Program-made: the position numbers and the translations under genes
IMG/VR virus record: IMGVR_UViG_3300050821_004062
Location: 1 to 43,500 of that record
Reading direction: 5' to 3' (one strand)
From: a virus
Length of the DNA: 43,500 nt
Shown: piece after piece, positions 5,882 to 43,000 of the stretch
How positions within the stretch are numbered: the first letter of the stretch is position 1
Layout: each line of letters opens with the position of its first letter
The notes under the pieces: generated by a model
The model's input: the letters and a program-made list of their open reading frames with translations, nothing else
The model's database searches: none
Told to the model about the DNA's origin: nothing

Positions 5882-6170
5882 GGGAGCGCCACGAAGGATT
5901 CAACGCAAGCGCGCGAAGGGATGGAAGATGCCGCCGAACACGATCTATGTGGGCAGGCCGACGAAGTGGGGAAATCCTTGGCAGGTGGGAGATGTGATAG
6001 ATGGGCAGGTTGTGACGCCAGAAGTAGCGGTGGAGTGGTATCGAATGGTGGTTCTGACGCCGGAAAATTCCAAACGCGCCGCCGAACTTCGCGGTAAAGA
6101 CTTGGCTTGCTGGTGCCCACTCGATCAACCCTGTCACGCCGACGTACTACTGGAGATCGCCAATGGATAA
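5865..6170 (+). CDS. DUF4326 family protein, 101 aa
   Basis: Family landmarks are all present: RIQRKRAKGWKMPPNTIYV, GRPTKWGNPW, ELRGKDLACWCP and CHADVLLEIANG. DUF4326 is a common phage and bacterial domain of unknown function. The conserved Cys/His residues near the C-terminus (CWCP, CHAD) may bind a metal. ATG at 5865 has GGGAGG upstream. The gene overlaps the previous one by 17 nt and the next by 8 nt. Confidence 0.75.
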   Translation: MSDKAEGAPRRIQRKRAKGWKMPPNTIYVGRPTKWGNPWQVGDVIDGQVVTPEVAVEWYRMVVLTPENSKRAAELRGKDLACWCPLDQPCHADVLLEIANG

Positions 6171-6279
6171 CTCAAAAGTGGTGGCCGAGGGAGCGCGGCA
6201 GCATATCATCAACCCGGTTACTGACCGATGCGTGCGGTGCGGACGCAATGCCTTCAACCGCGTAGTTAGATTTTTCTGA
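6163..6279 (+). CDS. Small CxxC protein, 38 aa
   Basis: The ATG lies inside the last codons of the DUF4326 gene. The protein has one CVRCG knuckle near residue 23 and ends in VVRFF. It is too short to assign. Confidence 0.4.
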   Translation: MDNSKVVAEGARQHIINPVTDRCVRCGRNAFNRVVRFF

Positions 6280-6540
6280 CGCTCTGCGGGCGAAGGTGGA
6301 GGGACGAGATCAGTAACAAGTTCGTGCGGCGGCGTTCACGCGGAACGCATCTAGTTGCCCTCGTATGGTGGGCACGGGCGTAAAGAGCAGCGGATTTTTA
6401 ATCCGAAGGTTGCCTCTGGCCCGGAGGCTGGCGTCAGGCAACTCCGATGCCATAGCTCAAAGCCCACGGTCGGTAACCAATCCGGCCCGCACGATTCATT
6501 TTTGACTCTAGGGGTACGCGCTGCGAATACGGAGGAGAAC
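6280..6540. other. Gene-free region around the tRNA-like locus
   Basis: No protein gene is supported here; the frame that crosses it belongs to the gene starting at 6541. It holds the permuted tRNA-like structure and an alternative long stem made by GCATC (6347-6351) and AGTTGCC (6353-6359) with GGCAACT (6437-6443) and GATGC (6446-6450). I see no convincing promoter. Confidence 0.5.
6368..6467 (+). tRNA. Candidate circularly permuted tRNA-Lys (UUU)
   Basis: The 3' half of a tRNA comes first: D-stem 3' strand GAGC (6385-6388), A26, anticodon arm GCGGA-TTTTTAA-TCCGA (6390-6406, anticodon TTT at 6397-6399), variable loop AGGTT, T-arm GCCTC-TGGCCCG-GAGGC (6412-6428), acceptor 3' strand TGGCGTC (6429-6435) and A73. 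Nine bases later the 5' half follows: GATGCCA (6446-6452), TA, GCTC (6455-6458). The two acceptor strands pair over 7 bp with one G-U, and GCTC pairs with GAGC. All arm and loop lengths from 22 to 73 are canonical. The open ends are closed by GTGGGC (6368-6373) with GCCCAC (6462-6467). Odd points: T-loop TGGCCCG is not TTCRANY, position 27-43 is mismatched, and CCA is not encoded. Confidence 0.6.
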
Positions 6541-7206
6541 ATGGTCGAGCCGGCGAGCGATAGTTACGACATTGTAGCGTTTGCGCGTGACGATCCGCGG
6601 CGCTTTTTTGAACTGGTCGAACACCTCTCGCCGCGAGATGCGGAAATTATTCTGTGCTTCGCTCTCCTCCAAAAGCGTCCTACAGATTTGTCAATACTAT
6701 TCGGAAAGGCAGGGCACCGTGCAGAAGAAGATTTACACAAAGCAGCCCACAAACTCGCCGGACTTATCGAGTTTGGTCCGAACCCCGACGTGGAAAAAGT
6801 TGAGCCGATACTTGCGCGGATCGGGGCCGATCATCTCCATGAGGGTGCCGTGGGATATTCTCAGGCCCGTAACTTCGAAGGATTTCCCGGACTCCGCCAA
6901 CGAATGTTCCGCGCGTTCAAAAAACTCCACGCCTCGGAAGGGCGCGAAGAAGGGCTGCTAGCAGGGTGGCTTCTGTGGCTCGTAGACGGCTCCGATCCGC
7001 AAGGGAAGGGCTGGCGCAAACGAAAATCCAGCGGTACGGTATATAAGTTAGGGCCAACGGTGTTTGGGAAAAGTCCTGACTTGCCACGATACGAAGGTGA
7101 CAGGTGGACCGGAGGCGGGCGGGTGAATTCTCGGGGCGGGCAGGGGCAAATTGCGATGCAGACCAAAATCGGCCGCAAGTTGAAATTCTTGTTGAGGGAG
7201 AAGTAA
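6541..7206 (+). CDS. Hypothetical protein with HTH-like segment, 221 aa
   Basis: ATG at 6541 with a strong GGAGGAG site. Residues 28-65 (LSPRDAEIILCFALLQKRPTDLSILFG and onward) read like a helix-turn-helix of sigma region 4 or small-terminase type, with an LSxLFGxAG turn. The C-terminal half has a GWLLWLVDGSDPQGKGWRKR block and a basic tail. It lies upstream of the packaging genes and no other small terminase is visible, so small terminase or late regulator are both possible. Neither can be shown from sequence alone. Confidence 0.5.
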   Translation: MVEPASDSYDIVAFARDDPRRFFELVEHLSPRDAEIILCFALLQKRPTDLSILFGKAGHRAEEDLHKAAHKLAGLIEFGPNPDVEKVEPILARIGADHLHEGAVGYSQARNFEGFPGLRQRMFRAFKKLHASEGREEGLLAGWLLWLVDGSDPQGKGWRKRKSSGTVYKLGPTVFGKSPDLPRYEGDRWTGGGRVNSRGGQGQIAMQTKIGRKLKFLLREK

Positions 7207-16811: not shown

Positions 16812-17804
16812 TTGGCATACCAACCGGCATCAGTTCTCACATCGACTGCGGGACTCTCGCATCTCTCTTCGATCTACTACGACCGCGTGGGCGTGGAGAA
16901 CTTGAAGGCCAACCTGCCCTACGTGGCGACGACCTCACGCCGAAAGTTGCCGGATCGCAACGGTCGCACCATTCAACTCTACAGCTATGACTTGCTGGGT
17001 GTGGCCTCGACGCCAGGAACGGAAGGCACTGTCGGGACTGGCGAAAATCCGACGACCTCAATCCGCAACGTCAGCGTTCAGCAGTTTTTCAACTTCGCTT
17101 CGTTCTCTGACATTCTGGTCGAAACCGCCATCGACCCCATTGTTGAGAACACCGCCGCCGAAATGGGCTATCAGGCCGCGCTGACCGCAAACTTCCTCGC
17201 TCGCACCGAGTACGAGGCAGAAGCTCTGGCCGATACCTCCGTCGTCGTGTCCTGCACCGACAACGAATTTTTCTCCGCATCTCTGGTTCGTCAGGGCGCG
17301 ATGTCGCTTCGCAACGCTGACGTGCGGCCACAGTCTGACGGGATGTTCGTGGGCGTCATCTCTCCCGCCCCGGCCTTCGACCTGTTGAACGACAACACAG
17401 CCGGCGGAGTAATCGACATTCTCAAGTATCACCGAGAAGGCGCTGAGGAGTTGATGCGCGGCGTGCAGGCGTACCGCGTGATCGACGTGGCCGGAGTTCG
17501 GTTCATCGAAACCACGACCGCCTCGACCTTCGCCAACTTCCCCTCGGGCACCAAGACTGGATACGGAACCTACATCATCGGTCAGGATGCGGTGTTCAGT
17601 GTCTCTCTGGGCGCAACGGAAATTCCAGAACAGCGGAATTTCCAGATCACCGTGCGAAACTGGGAGCCGAGCGTGGCGGACCCGGCGCGTGTCGTTGGCG
17701 CATCGGCTGCCTACAATTTCAAGTACGCCGCAATGCGTGTGCCGCAGAACGCTTCACTGCACCCGCGATTCCGGCAATTCAAGAATGAGGCGTCCATCGC
17801 CTAA
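16812..17804 (+). CDS. Major capsid protein (N4-gp56-like)
   Basis: 330 aa. Contains QLYSYDLLGVASTPGTEGTVGTG, FASFSDILVETAIDPIVENTAAEMGYQAAL, and a late VISPAPAFDLLNDN segment, matching the N4-gp56-type HK97-fold capsid proteins. It follows the scaffold candidate and is preceded by an AGGAGG site and a GTGCCGTC element. The start is TTG, unusual for a highly expressed gene but placed 6 nt after the ribosome site. The stop overlaps the next ATG by 1 nt (TAATG). Confidence 0.8.
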   Translation: MAYQPASVLTSTAGLSHLSSIYYDRVGVENLKANLPYVATTSRRKLPDRNGRTIQLYSYDLLGVASTPGTEGTVGTGENPTTSIRNVSVQQFFNFASFSDILVETAIDPIVENTAAEMGYQAALTANFLARTEYEAEALADTSVVVSCTDNEFFSASLVRQGAMSLRNADVRPQSDGMFVGVISPAPAFDLLNDNTAGGVIDILKYHREGAEELMRGVQAYRVIDVAGVRFIETTTASTFANFPSGTKTGYGTYIIGQDAVFSVSLGATEIPEQRNFQITVRNWEPSVADPARVVGASAAYNFKYAAMRVPQNASLHPRFRQFKNEASIA

Positions 17805-18478
17805 TGTATTACTCCCCCTCGTCGCTGCTCAACCCGACGCAGGATTTTGGCGGCGCTCCGAAAATTGGAGCGCCGATTCTTTATGTCGTGCGCCACGCCC
17901 AAAACGACGACGACGCGAACGACCGCATCCGCGGACTCAAAGATCAGCCACTCAACGAAGCCGGAGAAAAGCAGCTAGAAGCCCTCAGGGAGTTCTTTTC
18001 CGAGCGTCCGGTACTTGGGATATACACCGACGACCTTTCGCGCACCAGAGCGACTGCAATGGCAATAGCGGGGGTGTGTGGATGCGGAGTGGAGACAGAT
18101 ATCGGGCTGCGATCGTGGGATGTGGGATCGAAGCTCGAAGGGCGCTCGATGGCCGCGCACAAACTCGAAATTCAGGATCTGAAAACTCACCCGGCAAAAG
18201 TTCCGGTCGGCGGACAGTCGTGGGCAGATTTTGAGCGTCAGGCCGGAGAAGCCATAGAGCGAGCGGTGCGGCGCGGCATGGAAGCCTCAGCGCCAGTGTG
18301 CGTCGTGACGCACGGATCGCTAATTCAAATTTTCTTCCAGCGCTACGGCGAACTGGACAAGAACGCAGACTATGATCACACGCCACTGGATCAAGCCGGA
18401 GTCGGGGCGCTCTACCTTACCCGAAGCGGAATGGAAACAAAGATTCTGAAAGGCGCAAAGGCTGAAGTCGATGAGTAA
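17804..18478 (+). CDS. Histidine phosphatase family protein, 224 aa
   Basis: A phosphoglycerate-mutase-like enzyme: LYVVRHAQND near residue 28 (RHA motif with catalytic His), RGLKDQPLNEAGEKQ, TDDLSRTRATA, LRSWDVGSKLEG, and VVTHGSL with the second histidine near residue 168. All key residues are visible, so an active phosphohydrolase is expected. Substrate unknown. It is translationally coupled to the capsid gene (TAATG), an unusual place for a metabolic enzyme. A role in nucleotide or sugar-phosphate turnover, or incorporation in the virion, cannot be decided. Confidence 0.75.
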   Translation: MYYSPSSLLNPTQDFGGAPKIGAPILYVVRHAQNDDDANDRIRGLKDQPLNEAGEKQLEALREFFSERPVLGIYTDDLSRTRATAMAIAGVCGCGVETDIGLRSWDVGSKLEGRSMAAHKLEIQDLKTHPAKVPVGGQSWADFERQAGEAIERAVRRGMEASAPVCVVTHGSLIQIFFQRYGELDKNADYDHTPLDQAGVGALYLTRSGMETKILKGAKAEVDE

Positions 18479-27798: not shown

Positions 27799-28005
27799 AT
27801 GAGCAAGATGGAATTTTACCGCAGAGAGAACGGATTCGAGCTAACAGGCAGCCTAAAGTTCAAGGATTACAGCGAGATCGAGGCATTTTGCGACCAAATT
27901 ATGCGCTATCCCAAGCTCGTTGTCGTGCATCCGGGCAGTGAATTGATGGTGCAGGACGCTCCGCAAATCGGATCGCCGTTAGTGATTGATGACGAGGGGG
28001 ACTAA
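27799..28005 (+). CDS. Hypothetical protein, 68 aa
   Basis: GGAGG 10 nt before the ATG. Compact alpha/beta sequence (EFYRRENGFELTGSLKFKDYSEIEAFCDQIM). No family recognised. TAATG overlap with the methyltransferase gene. Confidence 0.5.
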   Translation: MSKMEFYRRENGFELTGSLKFKDYSEIEAFCDQIMRYPKLVVVHPGSELMVQDAPQIGSPLVIDDEGD

Positions 28006-28583
28006 TGCTAACGTGTCCAGTGACGCTTCAATTGCAATCTGACGCTTCCCAAGAGCAGTTAGAACTTCTGCTCGAAATGGTGAAGCAAACGAACCACATT
28101 GCGGGAGACATCGTAGAAATCGGCTCGTGGAAGTGCGGAACTTCCTGCCTCATGTCGATTGCCAGCCCATGCAAAACTGTGTGGGCCTTCGATCTGTTCG
28201 GCGGCTTGCCCTACGGCCCCGGAGTCGGCTTCGAAAACTTCGCCGACACAGACTGGAAAGAAATTCAGGAGACAACGGCACCATACAAAAACCTGCAATT
28301 AGTGCGCGGCTTGCACGAGCTCACAGTCCCGGAATTCGCGGTGAAGTGCGGCCCTCTGTCGCTGATCTTCCTCGACTCCGATCACTACTCATCTCACCGG
28401 GTAACGCTCACCTACTTGGCTCCGCTGCTCTCACCGGAAGGCATGATCGTGTTCCATGACTGGACGTTCTCAGATGTGCAGAAAGCGGTGAGTGACGCTT
28501 TGCCAATCGACGAATACGAAATGCTGAATCGCCCCGAGATGCACCACATGGGCGTACTCCGCAAGCGCGTGCCGTCTATCTAA
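28005..28583 (+). CDS. Class I SAM-dependent methyltransferase, 192 aa
   Basis: The SAM site GDIVEIGSWKCGTS near 34-47 is the glycine-rich motif I. WAFDLFGGLPYGPG and LIFLDSDHYSSHRV (post-motif acidic residues) and FHDW near 149 match the TylF/MycF-like or Methyltransferase_24 group that methylates sugars and small molecules. It could modify a carbohydrate together with the glycosyltransferase and heptose genes. Its last codons (RVPSI) coincide with a GTGCCGTC element. Confidence 0.7.
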   Translation: MLTCPVTLQLQSDASQEQLELLLEMVKQTNHIAGDIVEIGSWKCGTSCLMSIASPCKTVWAFDLFGGLPYGPGVGFENFADTDWKEIQETTAPYKNLQLVRGLHELTVPEFAVKCGPLSLIFLDSDHYSSHRVTLTYLAPLLSPEGMIVFHDWTFSDVQKAVSDALPIDEYEMLNRPEMHHMGVLRKRVPSI

Positions 28584-40993: not shown

Positions 40994-41265
40994 AAGTGAA
41001 GTCATTCAAGATTCCAGAGCGTGAGGGATTTGAGCGCGGCGCGGCTTTGGTCATCGTGCCGACGCCGAGCGGAAATTTCAACTACCTCTGCCACGCTTGG
41101 GAGATCGGGCCTACATCGTGGGTGTTGCAGTTGACGAGCGGCAATCAGGTTGAGATTCACAAGCCGGGCTCAATCTTCCTACACATCCCACAGAGCGGCC
41201 TCACGTTCGATTCGGACGGTAAATCCCGCGAGTTGAAATCCACTTCTCTGCTGGTGGTGAACTAA
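40990..41265 (+). CDS. Hypothetical protein, 91 aa
   Basis: ATGA overlap with the cupin. A beta-rich single domain (GAALVIVPTPSGNFNYLCHAWEIGPTSWVLQLTSGNQVEI) of unknown type. Its stop overlaps the next ATG by one base (TAATG). Part of the sugar cassette. Confidence 0.5.
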   Translation: MKVKSFKIPEREGFERGAALVIVPTPSGNFNYLCHAWEIGPTSWVLQLTSGNQVEIHKPGSIFLHIPQSGLTFDSDGKSRELKSTSLLVVN

Positions 41266-42410
41266 TGAAAATCCTCGTCATCGGCGACTTCATCAGCGAC
41301 GTTTACACCTTTGGTCGCGCAGAGCGTTTGTGTCCTGAAGCTCCTGTGCCTGTGCTGATACCGGAGAGTTGGAAACAATCATGGGGCGGGGCAGGGCTGG
41401 TGTTCGAGCAACTGTCAGCGCTCGCCGAAGAAGTGAGATCACGTTTTCTATCGTACTCAAGGAAGGAGCGATACTTCGCTGGCAGTCATTTGGTGTGCAG
41501 GGTTGATGATGACAATTGCGGTCCTATCAGGGCGCACGCGAATCTCATCATTCCGGTCGAAGTTGAGGATCTGAAATACTTCGACGCCTTCGTAATCTCA
41601 GACTATGGAAAAGGAGGAATGACGCGAGAGTTGGCGCGGCAGATCGTTGAGACCGGAAAGCCCTGCTTCGTGGATGCGAAGCACAATTGGCTGTGGTATG
41701 AGGGGATGCAGGTGGTGGCTTTTCCTAACGAGATTGAATTTCCATTTCGATTTTCAGTTCGGTACTACGCATTCAAAACGATAGTGAAAAAACTCGGCGC
41801 ACGCGGCTGCAAAATGGGCAATCTAGAATTACCCGCCACCGTGAGCGAAGTTGTGGACGTGACCGGCGCCGGAGATATCTTCATGGCCGCGTTCGTGTAC
41901 GCCTGGTCGATTCAGTTCACACCAGAAGATTGCCTTCGATTTGCGAATGAGTTAGCAGGAGAGTCGTGTCGGCATCGGGGAACGTTTGTGGTTGGTCGGG
42001 AATTCGCGCTATCAGTGCTCGATAGGCTTCGAGCTTCGAGAGCGTCTGAGCAGAAAGTTCGCGGGAGTTCTCTCGGTTCCACGCCAGCAGAGCATGCACC
42101 GTCTTCTCGACCGGATCAGTATGTGTATCCGAAATCGCGCGGAATAGACGGCAACCTTCACGCAGATTTACCTCTGGAAGTAGGAGGTCAGGAAGCGCAC
42201 ATTCAATATGATTCTGCCGCGCCCACTCTCCCCCAATCGCCATTAGTCCCCACTGAATCGCTCGCTGCTCAACCTCTACAGGTGAGAGCGAAGAATGCAA
42301 GTGGTAGGAAAGCGCAGAGCTCACAGCAAAGCCCGAGTTCCATTGCGTCCGAACGTCAATGTGAGCGCACACCAGGGCAGGATCAAGGGAAAATTCGTTC
42401 GCAACCGTAA
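41265..42410 (+). CDS. HldE/RfaE kinase-domain-like (PfkB family) protein
   Basis: KILVIGDFISDVYTFGRAERLCPEAPVPVL is the start of RfaE domain I, which phosphorylates D-glycero-D-manno-heptose 7-phosphate. FDAFVISDYGKGGMT follows, and DVTGAGDIFMAAFVYAW near residue 203 is the PfkB signature with the catalytic Asp. The region after GGAG is shortened relative to normal (about 255 versus 315 aa). After about residue 260 the frame runs another 120 residues of low-complexity sequence that lies antisense over the lytic-transglycosylase-like gene, so the true product may lack a proper C-terminus. Probably works with the nucleotidyltransferase at 42530. Confidence 0.7.
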   Translation: MKILVIGDFISDVYTFGRAERLCPEAPVPVLIPESWKQSWGGAGLVFEQLSALAEEVRSRFLSYSRKERYFAGSHLVCRVDDDNCGPIRAHANLIIPVEVEDLKYFDAFVISDYGKGGMTRELARQIVETGKPCFVDAKHNWLWYEGMQVVAFPNEIEFPFRFSVRYYAFKTIVKKLGARGCKMGNLELPATVSEVVDVTGAGDIFMAAFVYAWSIQFTPEDCLRFANELAGESCRHRGTFVVGREFALSVLDRLRASRASEQKVRGSSLGSTPAEHAPSSRPDQYVYPKSRGIDGNLHADLPLEVGGQEAHIQYDSAAPTLPQSPLVPTESLAAQPLQVRAKNASGRKAQSSQQSPSSIASERQCERTPGQDQGKIRSQP

Positions 42411-42447
42411 CGGCAAGTTTTACGAGTTCAGGTTTAGAGAGGAGCAT
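41917..42447 (-). CDS. Lytic-transglycosylase (SLT)-like protein, antisense
   Basis: 176 aa. AIQWGLMAIGGEWARQ and LPDLLLPEVNLREGCRLF are the conserved 'S-W-G-L-M-Q-V ... L-x-x-P-x-x-N-L-x-x-G' blocks of SLT domains that cleave the glycan backbone of peptidoglycan. The segment where the catalytic glutamate is expected reads HIDVRTQWN, so the usual E before the S/T appears replaced by R. Activity is doubtful. It is the only minus gene inside the rightward cassette and overlaps the kinase frame by 494 nt. No convincing promoter or ribosome site seen. Confidence 0.55.
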   Translation of the reverse strand: MLLSKPELVKLAVTVANEFSLDPALVCAHIDVRTQWNSGFAVSSALSYHLHSSLSPVEVEQRAIQWGLMAIGGEWARQNHIECALPDLLLPEVNLREGCRLFRAISDTHTDPVEKTVHALLAWNRENSRELSAQTLSKLEAYRALIARIPDQPQTFPDADTTLLLTHSQIEGNLLV

Positions 42448-42451
42448 TTCA

Positions 42452-42526
42452 ATGTTTGAACTTATCGCACTTTTGGCTCACTGGCTACTGCCAAAGCACA
42501 TGAAGCCGCACAGCTGGGAGAAATAG
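42452..42526 (+). CDS. Possible 24-aa hydrophobic peptide
   Basis: A good GAGAGGAG site lies 7 nt before the ATG. MFELIALLAHWLLPKHMK is hydrophobic and could sit in a membrane. The next gene starts 3 bp after its stop. It may simply serve to couple translation to the nucleotidyltransferase gene. Confidence 0.35.
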   Translation: MFELIALLAHWLLPKHMKPHSWEK

Positions 42527-42529
42527 GCG

Positions 42530-43000
42530 ATGGCTACGATCTTAGTGAACGGCTGTTTCGATGTGCTGCACATTGGCCACCGCCATTTTTTCCGAGCTGC
42601 CAAAAATCTCGGCGCGGAAATACTGTGGCCTGAAGGCCGCAATCCGAATCGACTCGTCGTAGGCGTGAACTCGGACCGATCCGCGCGTGCGCTCAAAATA
42701 GCCAAGTGGGGCGACAAATACCCCATCAACACCCAGACGCAGCGCATGGCCGCACTCGCACCCTATGCTGACGAAATTGTGGGATTCGATACAGAAAAGG
42801 AATTGCATGACCTCGTGGAGTGGCTGGCTCCATGTGTTCTGTGCAAGGGGCCAGATTACGCCGGAAAAGCTGTCACCGGTGACGATCTGGCCCCAGTTAT
42901 CATTCTGGACACGCCTGAGCCTGAGCAGGTGAAGCAGATGAAGATTCGCCTGTACGGCCAAGCCGCGTTTTGCACTCCGGGCAAGCCTTCGGATCGCTGA
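42530..43000 (+). CDS. HldE/RfaE nucleotidyltransferase-domain protein, 156 aa
   Basis: ILVNGCFDVLHIGHRHFFRAAKNLG carries the HxGH motif, followed by LVVGVNSDRSARALK, VGFDTEKELHDLVEWLAPCVLCKGPDY and VKQMK, matching RfaE domain II that makes ADP-heptose from heptose 1-phosphate and ATP. It is a stand-alone version; E. coli has both domains in one chain. Together with the kinase it could make an ADP-heptose-like donor for the GT9-like enzyme at 7207. Its 3' end overlaps a minus gene by 101 nt. Confidence 0.75.
   Translation: MATILVNGCFDVLHIGHRHFFRAAKNLGAEILWPEGRNPNRLVVGVNSDRSARALKIAKWGDKYPINTQTQRMAALAPYADEIVGFDTEKELHDLVEWLAPCVLCKGPDYAGKAVTGDDLAPVIILDTPEPEQVKQMKIRLYGQAAFCTPGKPSDR

Follow-up and report, generated by a model that had tools for sequence, protein, structure and literature searches.

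The window (the whole stretch of DNA analysed here, which is the entire 43.5-kb IMG/VR record) carries on its plus strand a tRNA-Lys whose two halves lie in swapped order: tRNA positions 22-73 come first and are followed by a 9-nt linker and then by positions 1-13 (6385-6458, read directly with the segments located by script). This permuted tRNA-Lys layout is real and not a product of chance; 20 of the 21 cloverleaf pairs are kept though the two strands of the acceptor stem and of the D-stem lie at opposite ends of the gene. From its sequence, we tentatively propose that the element is a gene for tRNA-Lys(UUU), circularly permuted with its opening in the D-loop, that may give rise to a charged, never-ligated two-piece spare tRNA. 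Genes with their tRNA halves in this order have so far come from algae and a few archaea, and the phage case would be new.

Layout and pairing of the permuted element

The non-coding stretch that carries the element and the parts of the element itself are as follows:

6281-6540, plus strand: non-coding stretch (260 nt) between a 38-codon ORF (6163-6279) and the gene that begins at 6541
6368-6373, plus strand: GTGGGC, 5' arm of an extra helix that prolongs the D-stem; exact complement of 6462-6467 (6/6 pairs)
6375-6379, plus strand: CGGGC in the D-region, which may pair with the T-loop; exact complement of GCCCG at 6419-6423 (putative tertiary contact)
6385-6388, plus strand: GAGC, 3' strand of the D-stem (positions 22-25); pairs with 6455-6458; matched by the covariance model
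6389, plus strand: A26
6390-6406, plus strand: anticodon arm GCGGA/TTTTTAA/TCCGA; 4/5 stem pairs
6397-6399, plus strand: anticodon TTT in the loop TTTTTAA
6407-6411, plus strand: variable loop AGGTT; length and sequence equal the consensus (covariance model)
6412-6428, plus strand: T-arm GCCTC/TGGCCCG/GAGGC with a non-standard loop; 5/5 pairs
6429-6435, plus strand: acceptor 3' strand TGGCGTC; 7/7 pairs with 6446-6452
6436, plus strand: discriminator A73; CCA not encoded
6437-6445, plus strand: 9-nt linker GGCAACTCC (from the sequence), joining the tRNA 3' end to the 5' end
6446-6452, plus strand: acceptor 5' strand GATGCCA (positions 1-7); RNase P would be expected to cleave before 6446
6453-6458, plus strand: TA and GCTC (positions 8-13, U8 present); GCTC at 6455-6458 is the 5' strand of the D-stem (4/4 pairs)
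6462-6467, plus strand: GCCCAC, 3' arm of the extra helix; complement of 6368-6373

The sequence-only reading that first described this DNA had named the tRNA segments and the outer helix, and every one of them was recovered in its place. The acceptor pairing over 7 bp that it described is complete (one of the pairs is the wobble U3-G70), as is the D-stem pairing over 4 bp, and the non-standard T-loop and missing CCA are both present in the sequence. It had also given the stems canonical lengths, which they have, without mentioning the G27-A43 mismatch in the anticodon stem, the sole failure among the 21 cloverleaf pairs. The 6-bp outer helix it pointed out (AAA and then GCCCAC follow positions 1-13 on their 3' side) pairs throughout and is by itself weak evidence, as a 6-bp run occurs at ~3% of the comparable places in the window.

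Apart from the T-arm, the element retains the residues typical of a tRNA (U8, A14, A15:U48, A21, A26, U33, A37 and A73); G18G19 is undefined in the element, whose D-loop is open. With respect to the features by which permuted tRNA genes are recognised, the order is that of the class (3' half before 5' half, bridged at the acceptor end by a short intervening sequence), and the consensus residues U8, A15:U48, U33 and U54 are present but U55C56 is absent (the loop reads U54 G55 G56). No bulge-helix-bulge (BHB) motif was seen at the junction in the sequence and pairing of the D-stem and outer helix. Because the BHB motif and the TΨC residues fail the definition of the class, the element is best filed as a variant and not as a plain member; its earlier description as a circularly permuted tRNA-Lys gene thus stands for sequence and structure but not for membership in the strict algal and archaeal class.

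The TΨC signature is normally important for folding, modification and ribosome use. In the element nearly all conserved T-arm positions are lost, and the invariant residues G53, U55, C56, A58 and C61 are all absent. The G53-C61 pair is inverted to C53-G61, so that both sides depart from the universal G-C and are still paired, a pattern more in keeping with a hairpin that has changed and is maintained than with decay. The GCCCG of the T-loop (6419-6423) exactly complements CGGGC at 6375-6379, the D-region site of the normal elbow contact, and may form a possible substitute for that contact; such a match is expected at ~2% of the window's comparable places. Together, this complement and the outer helix appear supportive, as weak and post hoc evidence.

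The minimum-energy fold of the 260-nt intergenic stretch contains exactly the cloverleaf of the element, and the total folding energy of this stretch is ordinary (z -0.6). The 100-nt core alone favours a different fold by 3.4 kcal/mol, with the pseudoknot not counted. As a separate observation, AGTTGCC at 6353-6359 is the exact complement of GGCAACT (6437-6443) in the linker and could influence folding of the precursor.

Comparison with chance and searches for further cases

A covariance search with a permuted model had been suggested by the sequence-only reading. We built such a model from 36 tRNAs of phage and bacterial contigs after opening each of them in the D-loop and connecting its former ends through a random 9-nt linker; the window was excluded. 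In an unfiltered search of both strands of the 43.5 kb, it matches 6382-6461 with 47.6 bits (E = 8.7e-11), and its second-best match in the window reaches 9.9 bits. Pattern scans for the permuted layout were also run, four on IMG/VR and one on ~85,000 GTDB genomes, and matches were scored by their acceptor, anticodon and T pairs (17 possible). The first IMG/VR scan gave at least 120 stretches. Among the matches listed from IMG/VR and the GTDB genomes, those that are not tRNA genes score at most 11/17 pairs and the window element 16/17; by inspection, the other listed matches above 11/17 are ordinary tRNA genes beside another TAGCTC, mostly that of the next tRNA in an array, and in the filtered scans their acceptor pairing does not exceed 5/7. 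A GCGC variant of the pattern gave 39 matches that score 3-10/17, with no tRNA junction among the matches listed. Chance is rejected because of the covariance E-value and these genome-scale null matches.

No second permuted case was found among the matches listed from the pattern scans of IMG/VR and ~85,000 genomes. L024/L100, which has a TTT "anticodon" and a 9-nt linker, is by inspection a chance match (acceptor 4/7, T-stem 4/5), and tandem tRNA arrays (L021-L140 and elsewhere) mimic the layout but have their own outer halves present. The 34 permuted tRNA genes compiled in a 2014 review come without exception from algae and a single archaeon (PMC3978253), and our full-text literature search, from which subscription papers and preprints were mostly excluded, found no bacterial or phage permuted tRNA gene by title or abstract. 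The earlier statement that no bacteriophage example is known therefore agrees with both the genome scans (matches listed) and the literature searched. The element could be the first natural circularly permuted tRNA gene of the bacterial world, giving a ligase-free two-piece phage tRNA in which a 5-bp kissing helix replaces the TΨC/D-loop contact, a composite claim that we regard as somewhat doubtful.

The phage has no canonical tRNA. ARAGORN detected neither a tRNA nor a tmRNA gene in the window, and the Rfam tRNA model (RF00005) found none in the record in a search that was positive in 14/14 control genomes, so an overlooked canonical tRNA was rejected and the intact tRNA-Lys elsewhere in the phage that would have spoken against the sequence-only reading was not found by either program. 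Near relatives of the phage likewise have no canonical tRNA, and Rfam searches at the gathering threshold and at E<=10 gave no family match to the element. By blast, its 29-nt anticodon-arm core (6384-6412) is ~90-96% identical to phage tRNA genes, for example tRNA-Lys; the anticodon arm and D-stem are nearly identical over 25-29 nt to the tRNA-Lys(UUU) of Streptomyces phage Wofford and Erythrobacter phage XM05. These and other ordinary phage tRNA-Lys(UUU) genes, such as that of T5, differ from the element in their canonical half order and in a T-arm in the ordinary position; the XM05 match, the one unannotated match examined, is a tRNA-Lys in canonical order. AAA accounts for 163/383 lysine codons in the phage genes counted, a usage that on its own gives no reason why a tRNA-Lys would be needed.

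A proposed two-piece tRNA-Lys and its alternatives

The proposed two-piece tRNA would arise as follows: the transcript would fold as a cloverleaf whose acceptor end is closed by the 9-nt linker, host RNase P would cleave before G1, and host 3'-end enzymes would trim to A73 and add CCA. Removal of the linker would leave two RNA pieces, a nicked and never ligated tRNA held together by the acceptor stem (7 bp) and by the D-arm with its 6-bp clamp (10 bp in all), and the 5-bp contact between T-loop and D-region could stand in for the normal elbow. Charged with lysine, such a tRNA might serve the phage as a spare, for example when anticodon nucleases cut the host tRNA-Lys. No RNA ligase or RNA kinase was found among the window proteins scanned (a subset of the ORFs), in keeping with the sequence-only reading, to which no ligase was visible; its side remark that an unligated two-piece tRNA resembling two-piece tmRNA might be made is favoured here, given the lack of a BHB and of a ligase among the proteins scanned. 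Points that count against a working two-piece tRNA are the TΨC loss, the G27-A43 mismatch, the alternative fold of the 100-nt core, the lack of a sigma-70-like promoter near the element and the fact that it is a single example.

Like the permuted tRNA genes of algae and Thermofilum pendens (PMC3978253, PMC3218864), the element has its 3' half upstream of its 5' half, a short intervening sequence (9 nt; 1-74 bp in the algal and archaeal genes, PMC3978253) and, presumably, a single transcript; CCA is not encoded, as in the algal genes, and the junction is in the D-loop, as in C. merolae tRNA-Leu(UAA). Unlike them, it lies in a bacterial phage, has no BHB, carries the extra 6-bp clamp beyond the D-stem and has lost the TΨC loop, and no splicing endonuclease is expected to act on it. 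An engineered circularly permuted split tRNA-Pyl also has its 3' half, loop and 5' half in one transcript, and E. coli processes and charges it without ligation (PMC10794150). Its loop, taken from tRNA operons, is removed by normal tRNA processing to leave pieces on a stem lengthened to 10 bp (stems of 10-12 bp were best), and we propose that the element may be handled likewise. The engineered tRNA is artificial, opened at the anticodon and assayed for charging, whereas the opening of the element lies in the D-loop and its anticodon would be retained; its clamp of 4 + 6 bp is split by an internal loop (AAA facing 11 nt), compared with 10 continuous bp in the engineered stem (PMC10794150). Two-piece tmRNA, which is carried also by phage Melnitz (PMC9004378), is similar in that the gene is permuted with the tRNA 3' part first, is found in phages and is processed to two pieces; the element differs in having no recognised tag frame, a real anticodon arm and D-stem, and U3-G70 in place of the alanine G3-U70. 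An assignment as permuted tmRNA was rejected on the anticodon arm, on U3-G70 and on the absence of tmRNA in ARAGORN and Rfam searches.

A spare or a decoy tRNA-Lys is plausible because PrrC cuts tRNA-Lys(UUU), PARIS cuts tRNA-Lys, and the own tRNA-Lys of phage T5 resists PARIS (PMC10264068, PMC11455837). In the decoy version the anticodon arm and acceptor would bind an anticodon nuclease of the PrrC or PARIS type, or LysRS, with no role in translation; these known targets speak for it, as does the fact that the anticodon-arm region is best preserved (the 29-nt blast core), in contrast to the T-loop, which translation requires and which has been replaced. For a decoy, the 7/7 acceptor pairing, the 4/4 D-stem pairing and A73 would all be unnecessary, the host has no known nuclease of this kind, and the phage tRNAs known to act against such nucleases are resistant working tRNAs and not decoys (PMC11455837), and we consider this alternative unlikely. 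The element might instead be a relic of a tandem tRNA-Lys duplication that lost its outer halves, the surviving junction being accidental and non-functional. Junctions of tandem tRNA genes do resemble permuted tRNAs to the covariance model (up to 72 bits), and the degenerate T-loop, the G27-A43 mismatch and the absence from relatives would suit decay; the flanks, however, hold no trace of either outer half (local alignment scores are no better than shuffles), 20/21 pairs are intact despite change at nearly every conserved T-loop position when decay should hit stems too, and T-stem pair 53-61 is altered on both sides and still pairs; we consider a relic improbable.

The permuted tRNA genes described in the literature searched are believed to require the splicing endonuclease and a ligase, and maturation by ligation, in which, as in algae and archaea, cutting and joining of the ends in the D-loop would yield first a circle and later an ordinary linear tRNA, is very unlikely for the element: the AAA opposite an 11-nt strand is not a BHB, no ligase was found among the window proteins scanned, and the algal and archaeal splicing endonuclease is not known to occur in bacteria. 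In its favour, C. merolae has a permuted tRNA-Leu of type I (20/21) with its parts in the same order and an intervening sequence of 10 bp (PMC3978253). The end of the element lies 74 nt before the start codon at 6541, on the same strand, and the element could on that account be a tRNA-like leader that controls this gene, in the manner of tRNA-mimicking operators in synthetase mRNAs such as thrS; homologous genes in L009, L017 and L020 have no such leader and nothing ties the 6541 product to lysine or tRNA (no family match); a leader is the most improbable of these possibilities. We also rejected a prophage attP site copied from the 3' end of a host tRNA, as the T-loop lacks TTC, a complementary 5' half is adjacent and no integrase was found among the proteins scanned.

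If the proposed unligated two-piece tRNA-Lys is correct, permutation of the gene would be tolerable with ordinary tRNA end processing alone, as the artificial E. coli system suggests, and a natural two-piece tRNA would be available for study. Several phage-defence nucleases act on tRNA-Lys, and the element may therefore be a new shape of counter-defence.

Genome setting and relatives

The window terminase is 62-80% identical to those of a small set of IMG/VR contigs and ~25% identical to those of isolates. The phage is of a soil type with an uncultured bacterium as host, and an acidobacterial host is suspected. The element is absent from all relatives examined, which were found through the terminase and neighbouring genes. 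The gene that begins at 6541 (GGAGGAGAAC ATG) has a good ribosome-binding site; its homologues in L009, L017 and L020 have coding sequence directly upstream, without tRNA-like sequence, and the element is therefore an accessory insertion seen once. A coding role for the element itself was rejected: the frame 6355-7206 is open, but its homologues do not align upstream of 6541, which is preceded by the strong ribosome-binding site.

Several minor features were seen in the window and in other viral contigs. Near-perfect inverted repeats (11/12 and 11/13) at 6216-6243 and 6467-6493 flank the element in swapped order between the two places, and by a rough estimate each is individually near chance. 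A very stable hairpin in L017 (200-256, GAGATGAGCGGCTGCT...AGCAGTCGCTCATCTC) has a CCCCACC loop that complements the following GGGTGGGGAC and is likely a pseudoknotted RNA. In the phage tRNA array of L158 (~910-1360; IMGVR_UViG_3300033233_000010), one tRNA has a ~30-nt D-loop insertion and the tRNA next to it on the upstream side is interrupted in the anticodon region by a long insert that may be a group I intron. In the viral contigs L164 (2061, plus strand) and L165 (10171, minus strand), tRNA 3' halves stand with no recognisable 5' half and are probably attachment-site copies of host tRNA genes. In the window, PfkB-like and cytidylyltransferase-like genes near the right end, together with genes for a histidine phosphatase and a TylF-like methyltransferase (41265-43000, 17804-18478 and 28005-28583), suggest a possible phage system of sugar-nucleotide or surface-sugar modification.
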